DNA of 6,620 bases from Actinomycetota bacterium. Its GTDB lineage: Bacteria; Actinomycetota; Thermoleophilia; Gaiellales; Gaiellaceae. Position numbers and translations under genes: made by a program. The stretch covers positions 1-6,620 of the forward strand of contig JACCTK010000183.1 in NCBI GenBank assembly GCA_013812465.1. Direction: 5' to 3'. Below are positions 126 to 6,463 of the stretch, one piece after another (the first letter of the stretch is position 1; each line of letters opens with the position of its first letter). The notes beneath the pieces are model-generated. The model was given only the letters and a program-made list of their open reading frames with translations, was not told where the DNA came from and did not search any database.

Positions 126-288
126 GATGGTTGATCGGTAATTGTCGTCGGTGCGGGGATGGCTGAGACCAAGCCGGGGACGCCGCCCGTCCGAGCGCGT
201 ATCGGGAATACGGGCGAGGACGGGCGGCGCCAGCCGGCGACGTGTCTCAGCCACCGCCCGCGCGACGAGGAATTGCCGATCAGCCATC
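126..288 (+). repeat. Long palindromic element, copy 1 (possible structured RNA)
   Basis: A 163-nt imperfect inverted repeat fills the gap between the lactonase and reductase genes. Outer helix: 126-143 pairs with 271-288 (18 positions, two of them T-G). It continues as 145-149 with 264-268 and 151-157 with 257-263 (one T-G). Second helix: 160-169 with 244-253. Then comes an asymmetric internal loop containing CAAGCCGG (170-177) opposite GGCGACGT (236-243). Inner helix: 181-192 with 218-229, 12 perfect pairs, capped by a small hairpin 198-202/208-212. The ends read GATGGTTGATCGGTAATT and, reverse-complemented, GATGGCTGATCGGCAATT, nearly the same as in copy 2. I see no target-site duplication and no coding potential. 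I place it on the plus strand because its wobble pairs are G-U only in that sense. In minus-strand mRNA it would be a leader hairpin just before the lactonase ribosome site. Alternatives are a MITE-like palindrome or a protein-binding DNA palindrome. Confidence 0.8.
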
Positions 289-303
289 TAACGGTCAGGG
301 GCC

Positions 304-1257
304 TCATGCGAAGCCGTGCGCACGCTCGTAGCCTTCGACCAGCGCGACCATCGCTCGGTTCAGTGGAACGTCGACGGCGCGAGCTTCGGCTTCGCGAACG
401 ACGGCGCCGTTGATAACGGCGATCTCGGTCTGTCGGCCGGCTTCGACGTCCTGGAGCATCGACCCCTTGCCCTCACCGACGAGAGCGAGGCGGATTTTCT
501 CGAGCTGCTCCGCGGCCTCGAGCTCATAGCCTGCAGCGCGCGCGGTCTCGAGCGTCTCTAGGGCGAGCCCGTCTACGAGGTCGAGCATCGGCCCAGGCTC
601 GCCGAGAGCTCCCGAGGTCAGGCCCGTGAGCGCTGAGGTCGGCAACGTGGACGCGGTCATTACGAGCTTCTCCCAGATTGCGGCACGGATGGTTGGCGTC
701 GCCACGACGCCAAGTCCGGCCGGTGCGAGAAGATCCGCGATCCAGCGGGCGTCGTCGAGCGACTCCCCGGCGTACGGCCCGATGAACGTGGTCCCCTTGT
801 AGTTGTGCGCGATGCGTCCGGGCTCGAGCACCGTGCCGCTGTCGTACGTGACGCCCACGACGATCTGCTCGTCGGGAAAGAAGCGACCGAGGACTTCACC
901 GTTCCCCCAACCGTTTTGCAACGACGTGACGATCGTCTCCGGACCCACGAGGGTCTTCGCCAGTCTCGCGGCGCTCTCGGTCTGGTAGCACTTCACCAAG
1001 AACAGAATGAGGTCGACAACTCCGACGGAGTGCGGATCCGTCGTCGCGCGGACCGGAACCTCTCGCTCACCGTCAGGTCCGACGATGACGAGACCACGCT
1101 CCTGCAGCCGTTCGACGAGGGGCGCCGAGACGTCGACGAACACCGTGTCGGCGCCGGCGTCGATGCAGGCCGCCCCGAAGATGCTGCCCATGGCACCTGC
1201 CCCGATGACGGCGACGCGCGGGGGCTCTGAGCTTTTGTGCGACGGCGTCTCATGCAT
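304..1257 (-). CDS. Ketopantoate reductase family (PanE/ApbA-like) oxidoreductase
   Basis: The 317-residue product has the two-domain build of 2-dehydropantoate 2-reductase, which uses NADPH to reduce a 2-keto acid in the cytoplasm. A Rossmann motif GAGAMG sits at residues 19-24, the NG motif (SLQNGWG) has Asn115, and the C-terminal helical domain holds the catalytic Lys197 in WEKL. It also has Ser266 (SMLQD) and Glu278 (RQTEI), which match the E. coli Ser244/Glu256 region. Two asparagines that contact pantoate in E. coli PanE (Asn180, Asn184) align here with Thr201 and Leu205, so the substrate may not be ketopantoate; many actinobacterial paralogs of this family have unknown substrates. Length is normal. 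The ATG has an ideal AGGAGGT site (1266-1272) eight bases upstream. It lies 30 nt after the aldolase gene, so the two are very likely co-transcribed in a degradation operon and not in coenzyme A biosynthesis. Confidence 0.88.
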   Translation of the reverse strand: MHETPSHKSSEPPRVAVIGAGAMGSIFGAACIDAGADTVFVDVSAPLVERLQERGLVIVGPDGEREVPVRATTDPHSVGVVDLILFLVKCYQTESAARLAKTLVGPETIVTSLQNGWGNGEVLGRFFPDEQIVVGVTYDSGTVLEPGRIAHNYKGTTFIGPYAGESLDDARWIADLLAPAGLGVVATPTIRAAIWEKLVMTASTLPTSALTGLTSGALGEPGPMLDLVDGLALETLETARAAGYELEAAEQLEKIRLALVGEGKGSMLQDVEAGRQTEIAVINGAVVREAEARAVDVPLNRAMVALVEGYERAHGFA

Positions 1258-1287
1258 GATCTGCCACCTCCTGTTCGCCGACAGCGT

Positions 1288-2091
1288 TCAACGAGCCCCG
1301 GCCCGAGCCTGACGACCGAGTCCTTCGTGGACCGCGCGTACGTAGTCGGACAGCGCACGCACGAGGAGGATGACCTCGTCGTCGGCGACCACCGTGAAGC
1401 ACCCGAGCTGGATCTGCTCGATCGCAGCGTCCGGGGTGCTCGCGGCGCCGATCGCAAACGGCATCCCGTGGGCGCGGCAGGAATCCAGGATCCGATTCTC
1501 GGCAGTCCGGTAGGCAGGACCGCCGATGTCGCCCGGAGCATCGAACGACAGCACGAGATCAGCAGGTCCGATCCAGACTCCGTCGATTCCTGGGGTTGAG
1601 TTGATGTTGTCGATGTTGTCGACGCCGTCCCGAGTCTCGACAAGCGCGATGACCACGGTGTTGCGGTTCACCACGTCGATCAGTGGGCGCGGATCCTCGA
1701 ACTCGGAGATCGCCGCGATGCGACCGTCATCCCCGCGCTCGCCCAGCGGTCTGTACTTCGCGAACCTCACTGCTGCAGCCGCGTCCTCGCTGCTCTCGAT
1801 TCGCGGGACGAGTATCCCGTCGGCGCCAAGGTCGAGGACCCGTCCGACGGCGCTCCGGCTCAGCTCCGGAGGGCGGACGATGACTGGGAGCTCCGCCGCC
1901 CGCGCGCTCGTGACGAGCGCGGCAACGTCGCGGTACGAGAAGCTCGTGTGCTCCATGTCGACAAGTCCGTAGTCGACGCCCCCCGCGGCGAAGGCGGAGA
2001 AGAGGGACGGGCTGAACAGGTCGCTGACGCCAACGCCGATCGTCGCGGAGCCCTCTCGGATGATCGACCGGCCCCGCGGCGTTCTCCGCAT
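1288..2091 (-). CDS. HpcH/HpaI family aldolase (class II, metal-dependent)
   Basis: The 267-residue product is a TIM-barrel aldolase/lyase of the HpcH/HpaI family, which cleaves or forms 4-hydroxy-2-keto acids (pyruvate enolate chemistry) with a divalent metal. Family residues are present: His48 in DMEHTS (the base), Arg73 in IVRPPE (binds the keto acid), Glu152 in LVETRDG and Asp178 in WIGPADL (metal ligands). The phosphate-loop-like stretch YRPLGERG (113-120) is also typical. All catalytic positions are intact, so the enzyme should be active; the exact substrate is unknown. The start is uncertain. ATG at 2091 lies 11 nt after the stop of the MDR gene without a clear ribosome site. An in-frame GTG at 2106 would overlap that stop as GTGA and add five residues, which suggests translational coupling. 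The C-terminal tail (QARAGAR) is outside the barrel. The ketopantoate-reductase-like gene follows directly. Confidence 0.9.
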   Translation of the reverse strand: MRRTPRGRSIIREGSATIGVGVSDLFSPSLFSAFAAGGVDYGLVDMEHTSFSYRDVAALVTSARAAELPVIVRPPELSRSAVGRVLDLGADGILVPRIESSEDAAAAVRFAKYRPLGERGDDGRIAAISEFEDPRPLIDVVNRNTVVIALVETRDGVDNIDNINSTPGIDGVWIGPADLVLSFDAPGDIGGPAYRTAENRILDSCRAHGMPFAIGAASTPDAAIEQIQLGCFTVVADDEVILLVRALSDYVRAVHEGLGRQARAGAR

Positions 2092-2102
2092 GCGGTGTGC
2101 GT

Positions 2103-3071
2103 TCACGGCCGGATCACGAGCTTTCCCTCCGCGCCGGCCTGTAGCCGCTTCCAGGCGCTCACTCCGTCCTCGAGGGAAACGTTCTCGATCTCGAGCACGA
2201 TGCGGCCCTGCCGCACGTGCTCTCCAAGCTGACGGTATCCCTCGGCGAGCACCTCGAAGGGCACGTTGAAGTTCGTGTAGCCGAGGACGTCGAGATCCTT
2301 TCCCCGGATGAGGGCGGAAGGGACGAGTGCGTTCGCTCCGGCCGCCTGGCCAAGCTGGATGATGCGGGCCCGAGGAGCTGCCGCCTCGAGAGCGGCAACC
2401 AGGGGCTCCCCCCAAACGGGATCGAAAACGAGTGTCGGCCCCTCGTTCCCGCATGCGCGCCGGAAGGAGTCGGCGAGTGTGCTCGAATCCACGAGCTCGA
2501 CGGTGGCGTCGGCGCCGTAGCGGACAGCACGTTCGAGTCCTTCACGCCGTCGGCCCGCGGCGACGACGCGGCTCGCGCCAAGCAGCCTCGCCGCTTGCAC
2601 GGCGATCAGCCCGACGGCGCCCGTCGCGCCGAGGACGAGCACGTTCTCGCCCGGGGACAGGGGCGCACGCCAGGTCAGGGGAAGCCAGGCAGCCAGGCCG
2701 ACCGTGCCCAAGGCAGCGGCGACGCCGGGATCGACCCCCTCGGGAACCGAGATCAGCCTGTCGCGAGGAGCAGTGGCAAGCTCGGCGCAACTGCCGTTGC
2801 GGCTGGTGCCGAGCCCATGCAGGCATGTGTAGACGAGCCCTCCGGACGCCGTCGAATCTTCGGCCTCGACCCGAGCGACGGCTTCCACCCCGGGGATGTA
2901 CGGGACGTTGGGATGCCCTGCGAAGGAGCGCCCGGTCGCGATCGCGACGTCGACGGGATTGAGGGGTGCGGCGACGATCCGCAGGAGAGCCTCGGCGGGA
3001 GCCGGCGTCGGCTCGTCGACGTCGACCAGTCGTGGTGGCCGGCCAAGCTCCTCGATCAGAAGCGCTCGCAT
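2103..3071 (-). CDS. Zinc-independent MDR oxidoreductase (quinone oxidoreductase-like)
   Basis: This 322-residue protein is a medium-chain dehydrogenase/reductase of the quinone oxidoreductase (Qor) type. The N-terminal GroES-like domain (about 1-120) has APLNPVDV (35-42) and PYIPGVEAVARV (57-68). The Rossmann domain (about 125-260) carries VLVLGATGAVG (144-154) for NADPH. No cluster of Cys/His zinc ligands is visible, as expected for Qor/enoyl-reductase members and unlike zinc alcohol dehydrogenases. Known members reduce quinones or activated alkenes; the substrate here is not readable. I chose the ATG at 3071 because GGGAGGTT (3077-3084) lies just upstream and the family motif MRALLIEELG starts there. 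The same frame stays open to 3272, but the extra residues have no MDR character. Its start lies inside the preceding 47-codon frame, and its stop is next to or overlaps the aldolase start, so the genes look translationally coupled. Confidence 0.9.
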   Translation of the reverse strand: MRALLIEELGRPPRLVDVDEPTPAPAEALLRIVAAPLNPVDVAIATGRSFAGHPNVPYIPGVEAVARVEAEDSTASGGLVYTCLHGLGTSRNGSCAELATAPRDRLISVPEGVDPGVAAALGTVGLAAWLPLTWRAPLSPGENVLVLGATGAVGLIAVQAARLLGASRVVAAGRRREGLERAVRYGADATVELVDSSTLADSFRRACGNEGPTLVFDPVWGEPLVAALEAAAPRARIIQLGQAAGANALVPSALIRGKDLDVLGYTNFNVPFEVLAEGYRQLGEHVRQGRIVLEIENVSLEDGVSAWKRLQAGAEGKLVIRP

Positions 3072-3199
3072 GTGGCAACCTCCCGCACCTCCGCAACGGC
3101 GCGGGACGAGGAGTACGCAGGGCGCCTCTGCGACGAACCGATGCTCGACCTCGAGCCCTGATGCTGCGATCCGTCCTTCTCGTACGTCAGAAGCCTCAT
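3056..3199 (-). pseudogene. 47-codon frame with FAH-like N-terminus: probable gene relic or leader peptide
   Basis: An ATG at 3199 has a strong GGAGGT site (3205-3210) five bases upstream, so translation very probably begins here. The product begins MRLLTYEKDGSQHQG, which resembles the start of fumarylacetoacetate hydrolase family proteins (pattern M[RK]LxTYxxDGxxxLG), enzymes that often sit beside HpaI aldolases in catabolic operons. After that the sequence becomes Ser/Arg-rich and unlike the family, and it stops at 3056-3058, 14 nt inside the MDR gene. If one base is skipped near residue 15, the neighbouring frame reads GLEVEHRFVAEA, which is FAH-like again. This looks like a frameshifted and internally deleted FAH gene that still supplies the first ribosome entry point and couples translation to the MDR gene. 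A genuine short leader peptide is the alternative. The similarity is judged by eye from 15-25 residues. Confidence 0.35.
3077..3084 (-). promoter_or_regulatory. Ribosome binding site that fixes the MDR gene start
   Basis: On the minus strand this reads GGGAGGTT, five bases before the ATG at 3071. It supports that start over the longer open frame reaching 3272. It lies inside the 47-codon upstream frame. Confidence 0.75.
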
Positions 3200-3220
3200 G
3201 AGGCACCTCCGCCGCGGGTG

Positions 3221-3252
3221 TCAGCAGGGCTATCTTATTATCATACTGCTGA
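3221..3252. promoter_or_regulatory. AT-rich island flanked by an inverted repeat: candidate divergent promoter/operator
   Basis: TCAGCAG (3221-3227) and CTGCTGA (3246-3252) form a perfect 7-bp inverted repeat around an 18-nt core, most of which (3231-3245) is strikingly AT-rich in a GC-rich window. The core offers -10-like hexamers in both senses: TATGAT on the minus strand (3245 to 3240) and TATTAT on the plus strand (3236-3241). I find no convincing -35 box at the usual spacing in either direction. It lies 22 nt upstream of the first minus-strand start (3199) and about 160 nt upstream of the plus-strand cupin. This is the position expected for a shared control region where a dimeric regulator could bind; no regulator gene is in the window. 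Confidence 0.4.
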
Positions 3253-3409
3253 GGATCTCCGCGCAGGGACACGCACTCAGCTCAGGCTTCGACGGCGAGC
3301 TTACGGTGCTAGACCACCGGCTCGAGCGCTGCGGGGGCTGAGACAGGCGATCCCGCCGTGGCGGAACGCCTATCGCATTGCTACGGTGCGCGCCTACTCG
3401 GGGCAGAGC
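3253..3409 (+). other. Non-coding leader upstream of the plus-strand cupin
   Basis: I recognise no gene here, although one plus-strand frame is open throughout. Modest hairpins can be drawn: 3276-3283 with 3335-3342 enclosing 3296-3300/3320-3324 and 3304-3308/3315-3319, then 3345-3349 with 3367-3371 enclosing 3353-3356/3361-3364. These are shorter and less convincing than the three long palindromic elements. TACGGT at 3382-3387 fits the loose actinobacterial TAnnnT -10 pattern, but it has no good -35. Confidence 0.3.
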
Positions 3410-3787
3410 GTGAGAGATCGATTGACGACTGGATGGCTTCACTCTGGGCGGGACGCGACGGCCATCGATCACGGCTGGGGATCCCTTACCTGGCTGGCGA
3501 ACAAGGAGCTAACAGGGACCGAAGGCGTGACGCTGGGGCGAACGATCATCCGTCCGGGCAAACGCAGTCCGCGACACCGGCACAACACCTGCGAGGAAGT
3601 CCTGTACGTCCTACGGGGCAGGGTGCGCCACAGCGTGGGCGAGGAGTCCGTCGTCCTCGAGTCCGGGGACACGTTGACCATCACGGCTGGGGTGTTCCAC
3701 AACGCCGCGAACATCGGGCACGAGGACGCGGACGTCATCGTCGCCTATTCGACTGGGCAAAGGGACTTCGAGCTCGAGCAGCCCTGA
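3410..3787 (+). CDS. Small single-domain cupin protein
   Basis: The roughly 125-residue product is a monocupin beta-barrel. Motif 1 is PGKRSPRHRHNTCEEVLYVLRG, in two parts: residues 49-58 with His56 and His58, and 59-70 with Glu62/Glu63 and Gly70. Motif 2 runs from Gly86 (GDTLTITAGVFHNAAN) with His97 and Asn101; its usual Pro is Thr92. His56, His58, one Glu and His97 form a complete metal site. The IDHGWGSLTW segment (19-28) before the barrel is typical of a group of small cupins of unknown activity, which may act as metal-dependent enzymes or as binding proteins. The start is uncertain: GTG 3410 has a weak GGGG at 3400-3403; TTG 3422 would give MTTGWLHSG and fits the family length as well; GTG 3386 is also in frame. 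It diverges from the MDR operon and converges on the minus-strand cupin, with palindromic element 2 just past its stop. The two cupins are not close relatives. Confidence 0.82.
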   Translation: MRDRLTTGWLHSGRDATAIDHGWGSLTWLANKELTGTEGVTLGRTIIRPGKRSPRHRHNTCEEVLYVLRGRVRHSVGEESVVLESGDTLTITAGVFHNAANIGHEDADVIVAYSTGQRDFELEQP

Positions 3788-3795
3788 CGATGTCA

Positions 3796-3950
3796 GATGC
3801 TTGATCGGAAATTGGCGAGCAGTCGGGGGCGGTCACGACCAAGCCGGCGCCCGCACTCACGCGTCGTGCAGGCTAGAAGCCTGTGCGACGCGTGAGGGGC
3901 GATCCGGTCGTGGCCGTCATCCGGCCCGCGTGAATTTCGGATCAAGCATC
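3796..3950 (+). repeat. Long palindromic element, copy 2 (possible structured RNA)
   Basis: A 155-nt imperfect hairpin lies between two convergent cupin genes. Outer helix: 3796-3813 with 3933-3950, 17 of 18 paired (G3807/G3939 is the mismatch). After a poorly paired 17-nt stretch on each side, a second helix runs 3831-3840 with 3906-3915 (T3833-G3913 wobble). An internal loop with AAGCCGG faces ATCC. Then 3848-3852 pairs with 3897-3901, and a 19-pair inner helix follows, 3856-3874 with 3878-3896, with two G-U pairs and an AGA loop. The end GATGCTTGATCGGAAATT matches copy 1 except at three variable positions, and GACCAAGCCGG (3837-3847) is identical to copy 1 at the same 41-nt offset. It has no T-tract after the hairpin, so it is not a standard intrinsic terminator, though its position between convergent stops would allow it to block read-through. 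Confidence 0.8.
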
Positions 3951-3968
3951 GAGAGCTCGGAGGCTCGC

Positions 3969-4349
3969 TTACCGGCCATCGAGCAGCTCGACGGTCGTGA
4001 AACGAAGTACGGTATCGGCGACGTTCGTCAGGTCGTGGATCACGATCTCGCCGGGCGCGATTTCGTGGAAGGTCACCTCGTCGAGGTGGCTGTCGTAGGT
4101 CGCGACCGACCCGTCGGGAGAACGGACACGCGAGAGGCCCGGGCTCTCGCACCGGTAGAAGTAGCTCGTCCGGTGGCAGTGGAAAGGGAGGCGCTCGCCC
4201 GGCGCGAGCGTGATGTCCCAGAAGCGCGCGCGCTCGTTCTCGAACAGCAATCTGCTCCCGACTTCGAAGTTGGTCGCCCCCCGAATGAGCTCGTCGGCGA
4301 TGTCCTCGAGATCCGCAGGGACTTCGATCCTACTCACTTCGTAGCACAT
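3969..4349 (-). CDS. Small cupin, BauB-like (beta-alanine degradation protein family)
   Basis: The 126-residue product carries one cupin barrel of the type annotated as BauB-like: LLFENERARFWDITLAPGE (residues 34-52), then PFHCH (55-59) with His57 and His59, and GEIVIHDLTN (100-109) with His105. The Glu that usually follows the HxH motif is not evident (HCHRTSYFYR), so metal binding, if any, would rest on three histidines. The family's activity is not established; BauB occurs in a Pseudomonas beta-alanine catabolic locus, which fits the polyamine-type transporter next to it. I chose ATG 4349 because GGAGGA (4352-4357) lies directly upstream; GTG 4379 in the same frame has no ribosome site. 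It overlaps the 3' end of the ATPase gene by 20 nt, so it is co-transcribed and probably translationally coupled with the transporter. Palindromic element 2 follows its stop. Confidence 0.8.
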   Translation of the reverse strand: MCYEVSRIEVPADLEDIADELIRGATNFEVGSRLLFENERARFWDITLAPGERLPFHCHRTSYFYRCESPGLSRVRSPDGSVATYDSHLDEVTFHEIAPGEIVIHDLTNVADTVLRFTTVELLDGR

Positions 4350-5490
4350 TGTCCTCCGCTGCTGGCTCGGCCGTTTCACCGGAAGTCGGGTAGGCGATCC
4401 CCGCCGTGGCAGGCCAGTCGACGCCTACGCTTGCGCCCGGGTGTGCGGCAGCCGGCTCGTGTAGCCGCAGCAGTGCGATCGGCGTGCGTACAGTGATCGC
4501 GTAGTACGCGCCGAAGAAGGTGCATGTCTCGACGCTTCCCTGGACGCGTCCACTCCCAGGGTCGGCGAGCTTCAGGTCCTGAGGCCGTAGGAGCACCTGC
4601 GCCTCCTCGCCGCCGGCGACGCCGGCGTCCGCTGCCGCGAAGCGGATCCCCTGCACGTCTACCTCGGGTGCGCCGTCGGTCCGCCCGACGACCCGGCCGG
4701 AGACGAAGCAGCCAGCACCCACGAAGCGTGCCGCAAACAGCGTCGCCGGGCGGTGGTACATCGTTTCCGGATCGGCGACCTGCTCGAGCTTCCCCTCGTT
4801 CATGAGCCCGACGAGCTGGCTGATCGAGAGGGCCTCGTCCTGGTCGTGAGTGACCATCAGGAACGTCGTCCCGGTCTCCGCGTGGATGCGAAGCAGCTCC
4901 TCCCGCACCTGGTGGCGGACGTTGCGGTCGAGAGCGGCCATGGGCTCGTCGAGGAGGAGCGCGCGCGGCTGGCGGATCAGGGCGCGGGCTACGGAGACAC
5001 GCTGAGCCTGGCCGCCCGAGAGCTGCGTCGGCATCCGCTGCTCGAGGCCCTCGAGACCGACGAGCCGGAGCATGTCGGCTACGCGGCGCGTGACCTCGCC
5101 CTTCGGCGGGCGGCTGCTCCGCTCGGTGGTGAGGCCGAAGGCGACGTTGTCGAAGACATTGAGATGCGGAAAGAGCGCGTAGCGCTGGAAGACCATGTTG
5201 AACGGTCGGCGCTCGGGCGGCTGGCTCGTGATGTCCTGGCCGTCGACGAGAATCGATCCGCCGTCCGGCTGCTCGAGTCCGGCGATCATCCGCAGCAACG
5301 TCGTCTTGCCGCACCCAGACGGCCCGAGCAGGCTGAAGAAGACCCCGGCCGGAAGCTCGAGCGAGACGTCGTCGACCGCGACCACGGCCCCGAACCGCTT
5401 CGAGATGCCGCGGACGCTCAACGCGCCCTGCTCACCCGCTGGAGCCTCTGGCGACCCGCTCCTCATCTGCGCTTCGTGAGAGGAGATCAT
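4330..5490 (-). CDS. ABC transporter ATP-binding protein, PotA-like (spermidine/putrescine-type importer)
   Basis: The 386-residue protein is a complete importer ATPase of the PotA/CysA class, acting as a dimer on the inner face of the membrane. The Walker A GPSGCGKTT is at 56-64, the Q-loop Gln102 in VFQRYALFPH, the signature LSGGQAQR at 157-164, Walker B ALLLDEP at 177-183 (Asp181, Glu182), a D-loop AALD, and the switch His215. A C-terminal TOBE-type domain spans about 290-365 (LLRPQDLKL near 300). The signature has Ala where QQQR is common, and the D-loop has Ala for Ser; both are mild variants. ATG 5490 overlaps the permease stop as ATGA and is preceded by a strong GGGGAGGG site (5494-5501); a second in-frame ATG at 5466 is less likely. 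It works with the PotC-like permease; the second permease and the binding protein are not in the window. Substrate (polyamine, amine or other small cation) is inferred from family only. Confidence 0.93.
   Translation of the reverse strand: MISSHEAQMRSGSPEAPAGEQGALSVRGISKRFGAVVAVDDVSLELPAGVFFSLLGPSGCGKTTLLRMIAGLEQPDGGSILVDGQDITSQPPERRPFNMVFQRYALFPHLNVFDNVAFGLTTERSSRPPKGEVTRRVADMLRLVGLEGLEQRMPTQLSGGQAQRVSVARALIRQPRALLLDEPMAALDRNVRHQVREELLRIHAETGTTFLMVTHDQDEALSISQLVGLMNEGKLEQVADPETMYHRPATLFAARFVGAGCFVSGRVVGRTDGAPEVDVQGIRFAAADAGVAGGEEAQVLLRPQDLKLADPGSGRVQGSVETCTFFGAYYAITVRTPIALLRLHEPAAAHPGASVGVDWPATAGIAYPTSGETAEPAAEDNVLRSE
4352..4357 (-). promoter_or_regulatory. Ribosome binding site that fixes the BauB-like cupin start
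   Basis: On the minus strand this reads GGAGGA, two bases before ATG 4349. It lies within the last codons of the ATPase gene, so ribosomes finishing the ATPase could re-initiate here. Confidence 0.7.
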
Positions 5491-6293
5491 GCACCCTCCC
5501 CTACGGCGCGTGATCCTCCGGACCGTCGCAGGAAGAGAGCGCCGACCGCGAGGGCGATCCACGGCACGAGCAGCAGGATCGTCGCCACCGCGTTCGCTCC
5601 CGGATCGATGAACCGGCGCAGCCTGCCGAGGACGTAGAGCGGGACGGTGGACTGTGTGCCGGAGGTGAAGTTCGTGATCAGGACCTCGTCGAAGGAGATG
5701 GCGAAGGCAAGCAGCATCGCACCCAGGACGGCGGGGGCGATGATCGGCAGCGTGATGCGCCACAGCACCTGCCTCGGCCCGGCGCCGAGGTCGCGCGCGG
5801 CGCTCTCGAGCTCGACGTCGAAGGTGCGGAGACGCGCGACGATGACGACGAGAACGAACGGGATCGCGACCAGGGTGTGGCCGGCGACGATCGTCCACAT
5901 CGCCGGCGAGATGTTGGCGACGTTCATCGTCGCGACGAGGCCGATGGCGATGAAGAGCGGCGGAAGCATCACCGGGAGCAGGCCGAAACCCTCCAGCGCA
6001 CGCGCCGTGCGCGATCGCCGGCGGGTGAAGACTATCGCGGCAGCCGTCCCTATGATCCCTGCCACGACTGCGGTGATCGTCGCGGCGATGACGCTCGTGG
6101 TCAGCGCTTTGCTGAAGAGGTCATCGCTGAAGATCTCGCTGAACCACTTGAGCGAGAATCCCGTGGGCGGCCACGTGAGACGGCGACTGTCGTTGAACGC
6201 GTAGACCACCGCAATGACGAGCGGCGCATAGAGGAACACGAGGAGCGCGACGCACGTCAGCCCGAGCCAGTTGCGTCTCACGCGTGCAGCCAT
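5487..6293 (-). CDS. ABC transporter permease, PotC-like
   Basis: The 268-residue protein is an integral membrane permease of the binding-protein-dependent (BPD) type. I place membrane segments at about 10-31, 65-90, 103-123, 133-153, 184-206 and 235-255, giving the usual six. The EAA loop that docks on the ATPase is clear: ESAARDLGAGPRQVLWR starting at Glu163, followed by ITLP. The first loop (VYAFNDSRR..., WPPTGFSLKWF) and the EAA sequence are typical of PotC/YdcV-type permeases for polyamines and related compounds. Length is normal. The gene overlaps the ATPase start as ATGA. Its own start has only a weak AGG two to three bases upstream, within the end of palindromic element 3. A PotB-type partner would normally lie directly upstream, but that space holds only the hairpin element and a divergent gene. 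Confidence 0.92.
   Translation of the reverse strand: MAARVRRNWLGLTCVALLVFLYAPLVIAVVYAFNDSRRLTWPPTGFSLKWFSEIFSDDLFSKALTTSVIAATITAVVAGIIGTAAAIVFTRRRSRTARALEGFGLLPVMLPPLFIAIGLVATMNVANISPAMWTIVAGHTLVAIPFVLVVIVARLRTFDVELESAARDLGAGPRQVLWRITLPIIAPAVLGAMLLAFAISFDEVLITNFTSGTQSTVPLYVLGRLRRFIDPGANAVATILLLVPWIALAVGALFLRRSGGSRAVGEGA
5494..5501 (-). promoter_or_regulatory. Ribosome binding site that fixes the ATPase start
   Basis: On the minus strand this reads GGGGAGGG, three bases before ATG 5490. It lies inside the 3' end of the permease gene and rules out the much longer open frame that continues to 5898. Confidence 0.75.
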
Positions 6294-6297
6294 CGCC

Positions 6298-6463
6298 TAG
6301 TGCTTCTCGCCGCAGATACGCCCGTGATTCGCCGGCGAGAACCGAGCAGGCCTAGGACGCAGGGAGCGCCAATATTCTTGAATATTGGCGCGACTGAGGA
6401 CGACGGCATGCGAAGTGTTCGCGAGGGGCGCGAGTGCGGGCGTATTTGCGGTGGGGAGCACTA
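6298..6463 (+). repeat. Long palindromic element 3 in the divergent gap (possible structured RNA leader)
   Basis: Positions 6298-6326 pair with 6435-6463 in 29 consecutive pairs without a mismatch if G-U is allowed: 23 Watson-Crick and six G-U on the plus strand (T6305-G6456, T6307-G6454, G6309-T6452, G6315-T6446, T6325-G6436, G6326-T6435). After one A/G mismatch the helix goes on weakly (6328-6333 with 6427-6433). The middle adds partial pairing (6346-6352 with 6405-6411) and ends in a perfect 12-bp hairpin, 6366-6377/6380-6391. The whole element is 166 nt, close to elements 1 and 2, but its sequence is unrelated. In plus-strand RNA it would be the 5' leader of the ThDP enzyme gene, ending 11 nt before the GTG; on the minus strand it ends 4 nt before the permease ATG. 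A DNA-level reading (two inverted copies of a leader around an operator) is the alternative. Confidence 0.75.
6366..6391. promoter_or_regulatory. Perfect 12-bp palindrome with AT-rich core: candidate operator or RNA loop tip
   Basis: GCGCCAATATTC, two T bases, then GAATATTGGCGC. It is the only clearly AT-rich spot in the divergent region between the permease and the ThDP enzyme gene, and it sits at the centre of palindromic element 3. As DNA it looks like a dimeric regulator site serving both directions. As RNA it would be a stem closed by C-UU-G, a known compact loop type. No T-run follows, so it is not an intrinsic terminator. Confidence 0.45.

Follow-up and report, generated by a model that had tools for sequence, protein, structure and literature searches.

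Full-length hairpin elements of an Actinomycetota class: apparent miniature transposons of an IS982-like element with an interior constrained on one strand

Three hairpin elements in the window

The window, a stretch of 6,620 nucleotides of an Actinomycetota bacterium, contains three palindromic elements. E1 (126–288, plus strand) is a 163-nt full-length hairpin, the plus strand of which is set by the motif ACCAAGC, and E2 (3796–3950, plus strand) is a hairpin of 155 nt. An earlier note had described these two, and both are real and fold end to end; it overlooked the third, E3 (6300–6461, plus strand), which is 162 nt long, was found as an inverted repeat and carries ACCGAGC at offset 41. The predicted end-to-end folding energy of the plus strand is −124.3 kcal/mol for E1 (z −13.1) and −110.6 kcal/mol for E2 (z −11.3), with −114.3 and −93.4 for the respective minus strands; for E3 the values are −98.3 (plus) and −73.0 (minus).

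The terminal repeats of E1 lie at 126–143 (plus) and 271–288 (minus), and those of E2 at 3796–3813 (plus) and 3933–3950 (minus). All four arms fit GATGSYTGATCSGNAATT without mismatch, as claimed in the note, and when three mismatches are allowed these are still the only four matches, against 0.06 expected. Neither element retains an intact pair of TA dinucleotides at its flanks: E1 is preceded by TG (124–125) rather than TA and followed by TA (289–290), and E2 is preceded by CA and followed by GA. The terminal repeats of E3 (GTGCTTCTCG... and ...GGGGAGCAC) are unlike those of E1 and E2, and this element is flanked by TA on both sides (6298–6299 and 6462–6463).

In both E1 and E2, GACCAAGCCGG lies 41 nt from the left end (starting at 167 and 3837), an offset that is weak evidence alone, being equalled by 4 of 200 shuffles with one mismatch allowed. 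The nine-pair helix of the note was also recovered. It is formed by 161–169 (GGCTGAGAC) and 244–252 (GTCTCAGCC) in the predicted fold of E1, and by 3831–3839 and 3907–3915 in E2, with three pairs changed on both sides and one changed to a wobble. In alignment A4 the left side of the conserved loop of E1 is CAA (170–172), followed by GC (173–174), and its right side is GACGT (239–243), where most copies have GCCGY. E2 has the left CAA (3840–3842), but about 7 nt are missing from it between 3906 and 3907, seen as gap columns in the alignment, and these correspond to the right side of the loop. Thus only the left half of the internal loop reported as conserved is common to E1 and E2, and E2 is probably a decayed copy. 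The inner hairpins, said to differ completely, do not do so in origin; with relatives included, they align as one family.

We used an end pattern and two bit-score models, R1 and the core model R2. E1 scores 127.5 bits with R1 and 85.9 bits with R2, and E2 130.5 and 61.7 bits, both elements being part of the building set of both models. E3 is absent from the R1 matches at E values up to 0.01; R2 detects it on the plus strand with 24.2 bits (E 0.001), the next unrelated match in the window having 16.4 bits. It was aligned with loci L126 and L116, and a 162-nt element at locus L149 (845–1006) has GTGCT/AGCAC ends similar to those of E3 and TA on both sides. E1 is also crossed by chance open reading frames. 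A scan for sigma-70-like promoters, of a kind unsuited to some organisms, found none in the window.

Against Rfam the sole match of the window was to MIR3454, below the gathering score (22.5 bits for a cut-off of 142, E 0.48), and 12 further loci with other subfamilies gave nothing at E ≤ 0.1. Neither set thus matched a known Rfam RNA family at the gathering score. A search outside the dedicated MITE databases gave no exact match to a known MITE. Our literature search, which reached few subscription papers, found nothing on miniature inverted-repeat elements in Thermoleophilia, and we do not claim that they are absent from print.

A mobile family and its partner transposase

E1 and E2 belong to a family of full-length hairpins of about 165 nt, seen here in one Actinomycetota class only, among the carriers of which is one MAG titled Thermoleophilia. 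The copy number per genome reaches dozens; one genome has 26 forward and 27 reverse element ends. The note's own refuting condition was checked with an outcome in its favour: further copies are present in relatives, with arms that diverge by compensatory changes. Copies are mostly 163–166 nt long, and since their lengths vary by 1–3 nt no reading frame is kept.

Candidate loci were filtered by a GC content of at least 0.60 and an end beginning GA. Of 56 loci 27 passed, and the remainder were judged to be chance and dropped without individual tests; the 29 dropped include L008 and L028, which later gave weak R1 scores of about 23 bits. The sole pattern match in a virus (L057) has a GC content of 0.44 and unlike ends, and was taken as chance. 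The DNA of the E1 region gave zero matches to plasmids, and the end pattern of one odd copy (L255) had no second copy at fewer than two mismatches elsewhere in eight genomes. When a longer region of the window was compared with 103 genomes of one family, the matches were to coding sequence and to some copies of the element; orthologous sites lacking E1 or E2 were not among them.

Among 82 non-redundant copies, TA is present at the left flank in 53, at the right in 67 and on both sides in 45. The stretch matching the site of the copy at L004 was taken from eight genomes, of which one (G008) was aligned; its site is empty, and in this single case the comparison shows duplication of TA.

The terminal inverted repeats are common to elements of about 1 kb that code for an IS982-like transposase. 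In the partner element at L131 (1930–2929, about 1 kb) a 308-aa transposase lies between matching ends (GATGCTTGATCGGTAATTCACGGCGGG) with CTA/TAG flanks, and the continuation CACGGCGGG occurs also in right ends of the MITEs and in short copies of L136. Ends of the CTAGATG, CTAGACG or CTAGAGG type were found on both sides in 13 of 30 homologous loci inspected, and CTA...TAG surrounds 12 of the 13 partner elements as read; the left end at L174 was placed 7 nt off by the script, yet contains CTAGATGAG. No hairpin core was seen close to the ends of the 13 partner elements.

The partner transposase is of the DDE type. Plasmid homologs are 40–46% identical to it, several of them annotated as IS982 family transposase, and it scores 126 bits against NF033520, just under the IS982 cut-off of 130. 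The IS982 family has target duplications of 6–9 bp and ACCC-type ends. Neither was found here, where there are TA flanks and CTAGATG-type ends instead, and because the ends and flanks depart from the IS982 type we call the partner IS982-like only.

Short intergenic palindromic MITEs with TA targets also include Correia/NEMIS and RUP, and these have IS630-type partners. Such a partner was rejected for the present family: transposases with a DDE_3 domain occur in two of 11 host genomes (four loci), without an element end at fewer than four mismatches. For NEMIS and RUP, sizes of 100–160 nt are given in the part of PMC2267715 that describes them.

On the grounds of the common ends, the CTAG/TA sites, the copy number and the one empty site, the hairpins appear to be non-autonomous transposons (MITEs) of the IS982-like element.

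Constraint of the fold on one strand

The helices on either side of the conserved asymmetric loop (CAAGC/GCGCCGY) covary, and the loop is unchanged while they vary. Double changes occur in 57 of 75 pairs, with a covariation score of 0.430 compared with 0.066–0.081 in slid controls, and covariation also exceeds that of shuffles; these sequences, on both strands, had themselves served to derive the structure. Alignments A4 and A5 do not include L099, and A5 also omits L273 and L264. The same core is found under several unlike terminal repeats.

Taking the plus strand as the orientation given by the loop motif, we compared the folding of the two strands. Of 56 copies, 55 fold better as the plus strand, as do 48 of 49 when hand-oriented copies are omitted, and the same holds for all 13 cluster means; there were 68 copies of 110 nt or more, 12 of which were excluded, being outside 155–176 nt or unorientable. 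In a hold-out of 40 copies the motif gave an orientation for all but two (L263 and L264), and the plus strand is the better folded in 38 of these 38. The hold-out was drawn from the better R1 matches and 27 of its copies come from one genome (G006), so that related copies are numerous and poorly folded ones under-represented.

G·T wobbles exceed A·C mismatches by 230:69 in the main set and by 210:57 in the hold-out, the relatedness of copies meaning that p values overstate independence. A class of 198–259 nt shows little asymmetry, with 10 wobbles and nine A·C mismatches in its four oriented copies. The conclusion that emerges from these sequence comparisons is that the fold is under constraint on one fixed strand. 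The note had favoured a structured RNA and set a MITE-like palindrome against it; mobility and a structural constraint on one strand both hold, and the two are not alternatives.

Possible roles of the folded strand

The reading we prefer, with a probability of about 0.68, is that the palindromes are MITEs of the IS982-like element with an interior constrained on one strand, the plus strand of which would serve the element itself as RNA. The transposase would move the DNA of the element by way of the terminal repeats. We infer that the plus strand is transcribed and acts on behalf of the element and not of the gene beside it; the most likely mode of action is protein binding to the conserved loop during some phase of the element's mobile life. 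The core would be retained while terminal repeats vary between subgroups of transposase. A role for the element is consistent with the copies being randomly oriented to neighbouring genes: upstream neighbours are in the same sense in 27 cases and opposite in 28, downstream in 25 and 30, and sense and antisense copies are equally folded.

That orientation would also fit a plus strand that folded as single-stranded DNA in replication or transposition, its hairpin being recognised by the transposase or a host factor with no RNA function. In keeping with this, the constraint extends through the terminal repeats, where wobbles also occur and the ends of E3 show four differences, and with DNA energies the plus strand is still the more stable in 54 of 56 copies, with nearly the same asymmetry. 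However, in every cluster the two strands differ less in energy when DNA rather than RNA parameters are used, and DDE-type transposases are not known to act on single-stranded hairpins. We consider this explanation unlikely, though the best placed of the alternatives. Strand-specific recognition of single-stranded DNA is a property of the IS200/IS605-type TnpA-REP that acts on REP/REPIN elements, which are likewise intergenic hairpins with conserved irregularities. REP are 20–40 bp with GTAG or CGTC tags, as far as PMC3733652 describes them, whereas the present elements are about 165 nt, with a DDE partner and TA duplication.

Less probable again is a palindromic MITE without strand selection, its arms kept by correction between them at the DNA level and its asymmetry a product of shared ancestry or mutational bias. 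Template switching can correct long palindromes, close relatives are frequent among the copies, and C>T changes dominate the asymmetry. Yet strand-blind correction across copies of both senses yields no asymmetry, and the excess of G·T over A·C survives when each column state is counted once (63:33), with cluster-majority states (36:14) and within clusters (56:21). Moreover, C>T changes are in excess in paired columns (35:10) and not in unpaired ones (5:11), so the asymmetry does not arise from a general C-to-T bias, and the loop stays as the helices change. By itself, the 17:11 excess of A>G over T>C carries little weight.

That the elements are host-beneficial mRNA hairpins, stabilising 3′-UTRs or intercistronic regions or acting as processing sites in place, is very improbable: none of 61 oriented copies lies within a predicted gene (called by a simple codon score, not a trained gene finder) and Bacillus cereus bcr1–bcr3 are often in UTRs or operon-internal regions according to the relevant part of PMC3446304, but neighbours are evenly oriented, sense and antisense copies fold alike, the L004 copy is missing from the matching site in G008, and the window has no terminator-like site.

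The bcr1-type repeat is the nearest known kind that we found, by description, the sequences not being compared. As set out in the relevant passages of PMC3446304 and PMC2267715, bcr1–bcr3 are intergenic, MITE-like repeats about 150 nt long that fold into a stem-loop and are transcribed within UTRs and operons; their host is a Firmicute, and those passages name no transposase partner. The present family differs in its IS982-like partner, TA duplication, terminal hairpin spanning the whole element and measured constraint on one strand. MITECca01 of Cardinium, a non-autonomous element of about 240 bp derived from ISCca4, has inverted repeats of an IS982-family element, and the account of it in PMC9769881, so far as it extends, mentions no conserved RNA-like interior; in our family the 13 partner elements showed no core close to their ends.

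Returning to an RNA that serves the element, we can tentatively picture a selfish module, for which the odds are somewhat against: an RNA with a defined structure, about 110 nt long and of other origin than the transposons that move it, would have become joined to terminal sequences of several IS982-like subgroups. As their MITE it would be spreading through one bacterial class, its strand-specific fold and conserved loop helping it to propagate, perhaps through binding of the transposase or of a host protein. That unlike terminal repeats enclose one and the same core suggests that the module persists longer than the transposase it is paired with.

Bacterial MITEs are usually regarded as passive products of deletion within insertion sequences. 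The wobble test separates selection for a fold on one strand from plain DNA palindromy, and here points to a function of RNA, or single-stranded DNA, in a mobile element. Requiring nothing beyond sequence, it may be applied to ERIC, Correia, RUP and bcr1, for which it is a long-standing question which are entities at the RNA level.

Three elements in the window and their copies in relatives

The earlier note described two palindromic elements, at 126-288 and 3796-3950, and inspection of the sequence bore out their coordinates, ends, loop offset and second helix. Each folds along its whole length, much more stably than shuffled controls do. Pursuing an inverted repeat detected in the window led to a third element of 162 nt at 6300-6461, flanked on both sides by TA (CTA...TAA), with terminal repeats unlike those of the other two and a core of the same kind. 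It folds with -98.3 kcal/mol on the plus strand (the strand bearing the loop motif ACCAAGC) and -73.0 kcal/mol on the minus. Its first 18 nt differ from the reverse complement of the last 18 at four positions, each of which forms a G.T wobble on the plus strand, and ACCGAGC lies one nucleotide from the offset of ACCAAGC in other copies. A core model built without it matched it on the plus strand (24.2 bits, E = 0.001; next unrelated match in the window, 16.4 bits); the full-length model missed it at a threshold of E 0.01. It can be aligned with the elements at loci L126 and L116, and a 162-nt element of another genome (L149, 845-1006) has similar ends (GTGCT...AGCAC) with TA on both flanks. 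No transposase was found for such GTGCT/AGCAC-ended relatives. The genes around the elements (304-6293) encode ketopantoate reductase, HpcH/HpaI aldolase, zinc-binding dehydrogenase, a cupin, an ABC ATPase with TOBE and an ABC permease; 3969-4352 had no Pfam match at 1e-5.

Further copies in relatives, a check that the earlier note had named, were found. When the genome collection was scanned with a two-ended pattern, 56 loci came up and 27 of them passed the selection rule; these clear copies come from 11 MAGs, all labelled Actinomycetota, Actinomycetes or Thermoleophilia (the genome of L034 is labelled Thermoleophilia) and all within one class draw. The 18-nt end, with at most one mismatch, occurred in 30 of the 399 genomes of that draw, and the reversed pattern gave three hits in total. 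In the phylum draw the core model, with stricter filters, was positive in 3 of 396 genomes, all already in the class list.

Two genomes (G203 and G290) carry a longer class (L116, L119, L124-L127), most members measuring 198-259 nt, whose ends are GTAAGT-type and whose folds branch; ACC(A/G)AGC stands at the same offset, and inner sequence is common with the element at 6300-6461. Four contigs of G265 (L120-L123) stop within about 5 nt past a GACGGTTGATCGGTAATT end, as if assembly had broken at element copies.

Mobility and the modular core

The palindromes are a mobile element. At L131 two such ends lie exactly 1000 nt apart with the gene of a DDE transposase of 308 aa between them (DDE_Tnp_1, 2e-9; IS982 family, 126 bits, just below the curated cut-off of 130). 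Transposase matches (E up to 0.001, partials counted) were present in 69 of the 399 genomes of the class draw, and CTAGATG-, CTAGACG- or CTAGAGG-type ends stood on both sides in 13 of 30 transposase loci inspected. Among 82 non-redundant paired-end copies TA flanked the left end in 53, the right in 67 and both in 45, with CTA...TAG in 32; 14 are only 46-102 nt long and are probably internal deletions. The filled site at L004 reads GCGGACGCCTC-TA-[element]-TA-GGGATCTTG, and a matching empty site in G008 reads GCGGACGCCTT-TA-GGGATTTG. At L149 one TA is all that lies between two elements whose end types differ, and TA also stands on their outer sides; two adjoining copies in G070 have a CTAG in common where they meet.

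Adjoining the L004 element is a distinct palindromic repeat, some 50 nt long (3173-3223, GGGATCTTGCGC...GCGCC), a REP-like repeat or terminator, whose query segment 1675-1722 recurs at many sites in at least seven genomes of the genus. In the leaders of seven IS982-like elements (L131, L173, L175, L177, L181, L182, L191) a GTCGAAG...CGTCGAC-type hairpin directly precedes the ribosome-binding site and transposase gene start, possibly limiting transposase translation.

One core is found under unlike terminal repeats (GATGSTTGATCGGNAATT, GATGGTTGATTCCTAATT, GATGGTTGATGCCACGCG, GAGGCTTGATGTGGAACT, GATGGTCGATTCCCCATT and, once, CTTGGCCGGATAGCCGCA), several of which look like the termini of different IS982-like elements of the class (GATGATTGATGCC, GATGATCGATTCC, GAGGCTTGATGCG). 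In 13 autonomous elements the outermost 140 nt at either end were searched for CCAAGC, ACCAAG and GCCGTG. Neither CCAAGC nor ACCAAG was present there at the MITE offset, and thus the core does not look like a leftover of any of these insertion sequences.

A structural constraint with a strand

The interior is under structural constraint. In 26 sequences less than 91% identical, with the structure derived by folding both strands, changes on both sides were seen at 57 of 75 pairs, which upholds the covarying helices around a conserved loop of the earlier note. Double-change cells numbered 287 (shuffles averaged 103, slid controls gave 46-74). The covariation score was 0.430 (slid control, 0.066-0.081). 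The loop between the helices is constant: its left side reads CAA or CGA and its right side GCGCCGY. Loose patterns found both halves in 88 of 96 copies, the left being missing in four and the right in four. Comparison with Rfam, also proposed in the earlier note, gave no family at its cut-off.

This constraint has a strand, the plus. The plus strand had the stronger fold in 55 of 56 motif-oriented copies (mean difference -19.6 kcal/mol), in 48 of 49 once seven hand-oriented copies were removed, in 54 of 56 using DNA energies, and in all 13 cluster averages. Of 40 newly fetched copies, for which the orientation rule was fixed before their folds were seen, 38 could be oriented and the plus strand was more stable in every one; they contained 210 wobbles and 57 A.C mismatches.

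Because a G.T on one strand is an A.C on the other, and the elements insert in either sense, a strand-blind process should give equal numbers of the two. In 53 motif-oriented copies whose arms were aligned strand-symmetrically, there were 230 wobbles and 69 A.C. Counting each column state once gave 63 versus 33 (p = 0.003), cluster-majority states 36 versus 14 (p = 0.003) and within-cluster changes 56 versus 21 (p = 8e-5), the binomial probabilities assuming independence. A general C-to-T bias is rejected as the cause, since C>T exceeded G>A by 35 to 10 in paired columns and fell short of it, 5 to 11, in unpaired ones (p = 0.0016). Against the asymmetry, the 198-259-nt class of G203 and G290 displays little of it, many of the copies are closely related, and the excess of A>G over T>C (17 versus 11) is weak taken alone.

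Genomic setting and proposed function

By simple gene calls, none of 61 oriented copies lies within a predicted gene. Upstream neighbours were in the same sense in 27 cases and opposite in 28, downstream neighbours in 25 and 30, the remainder being contig ends. Fold quality was equal for sense (12) and antisense (15) copies (p = 0.83 and 0.90). The lack of a preferred sense, together with equal folding, argues for a function belonging to the element rather than to the adjacent mRNA. The plus strand would be transcribed, the folded species would be RNA, and its conserved loop may bind something; a scan of the window detected no sigma-70-like promoter.

Among the published kinds consulted, the nearest are bcr1-bcr3 of Bacillus cereus (PMC3446304) and an IS982-derived MITE of Cardinium (PMC9769881). 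The family is real and multicopy, consisting of IS982-like MITEs with a conserved core structured on one strand. Its noteworthy features are the evidence for a strand and the modular core.
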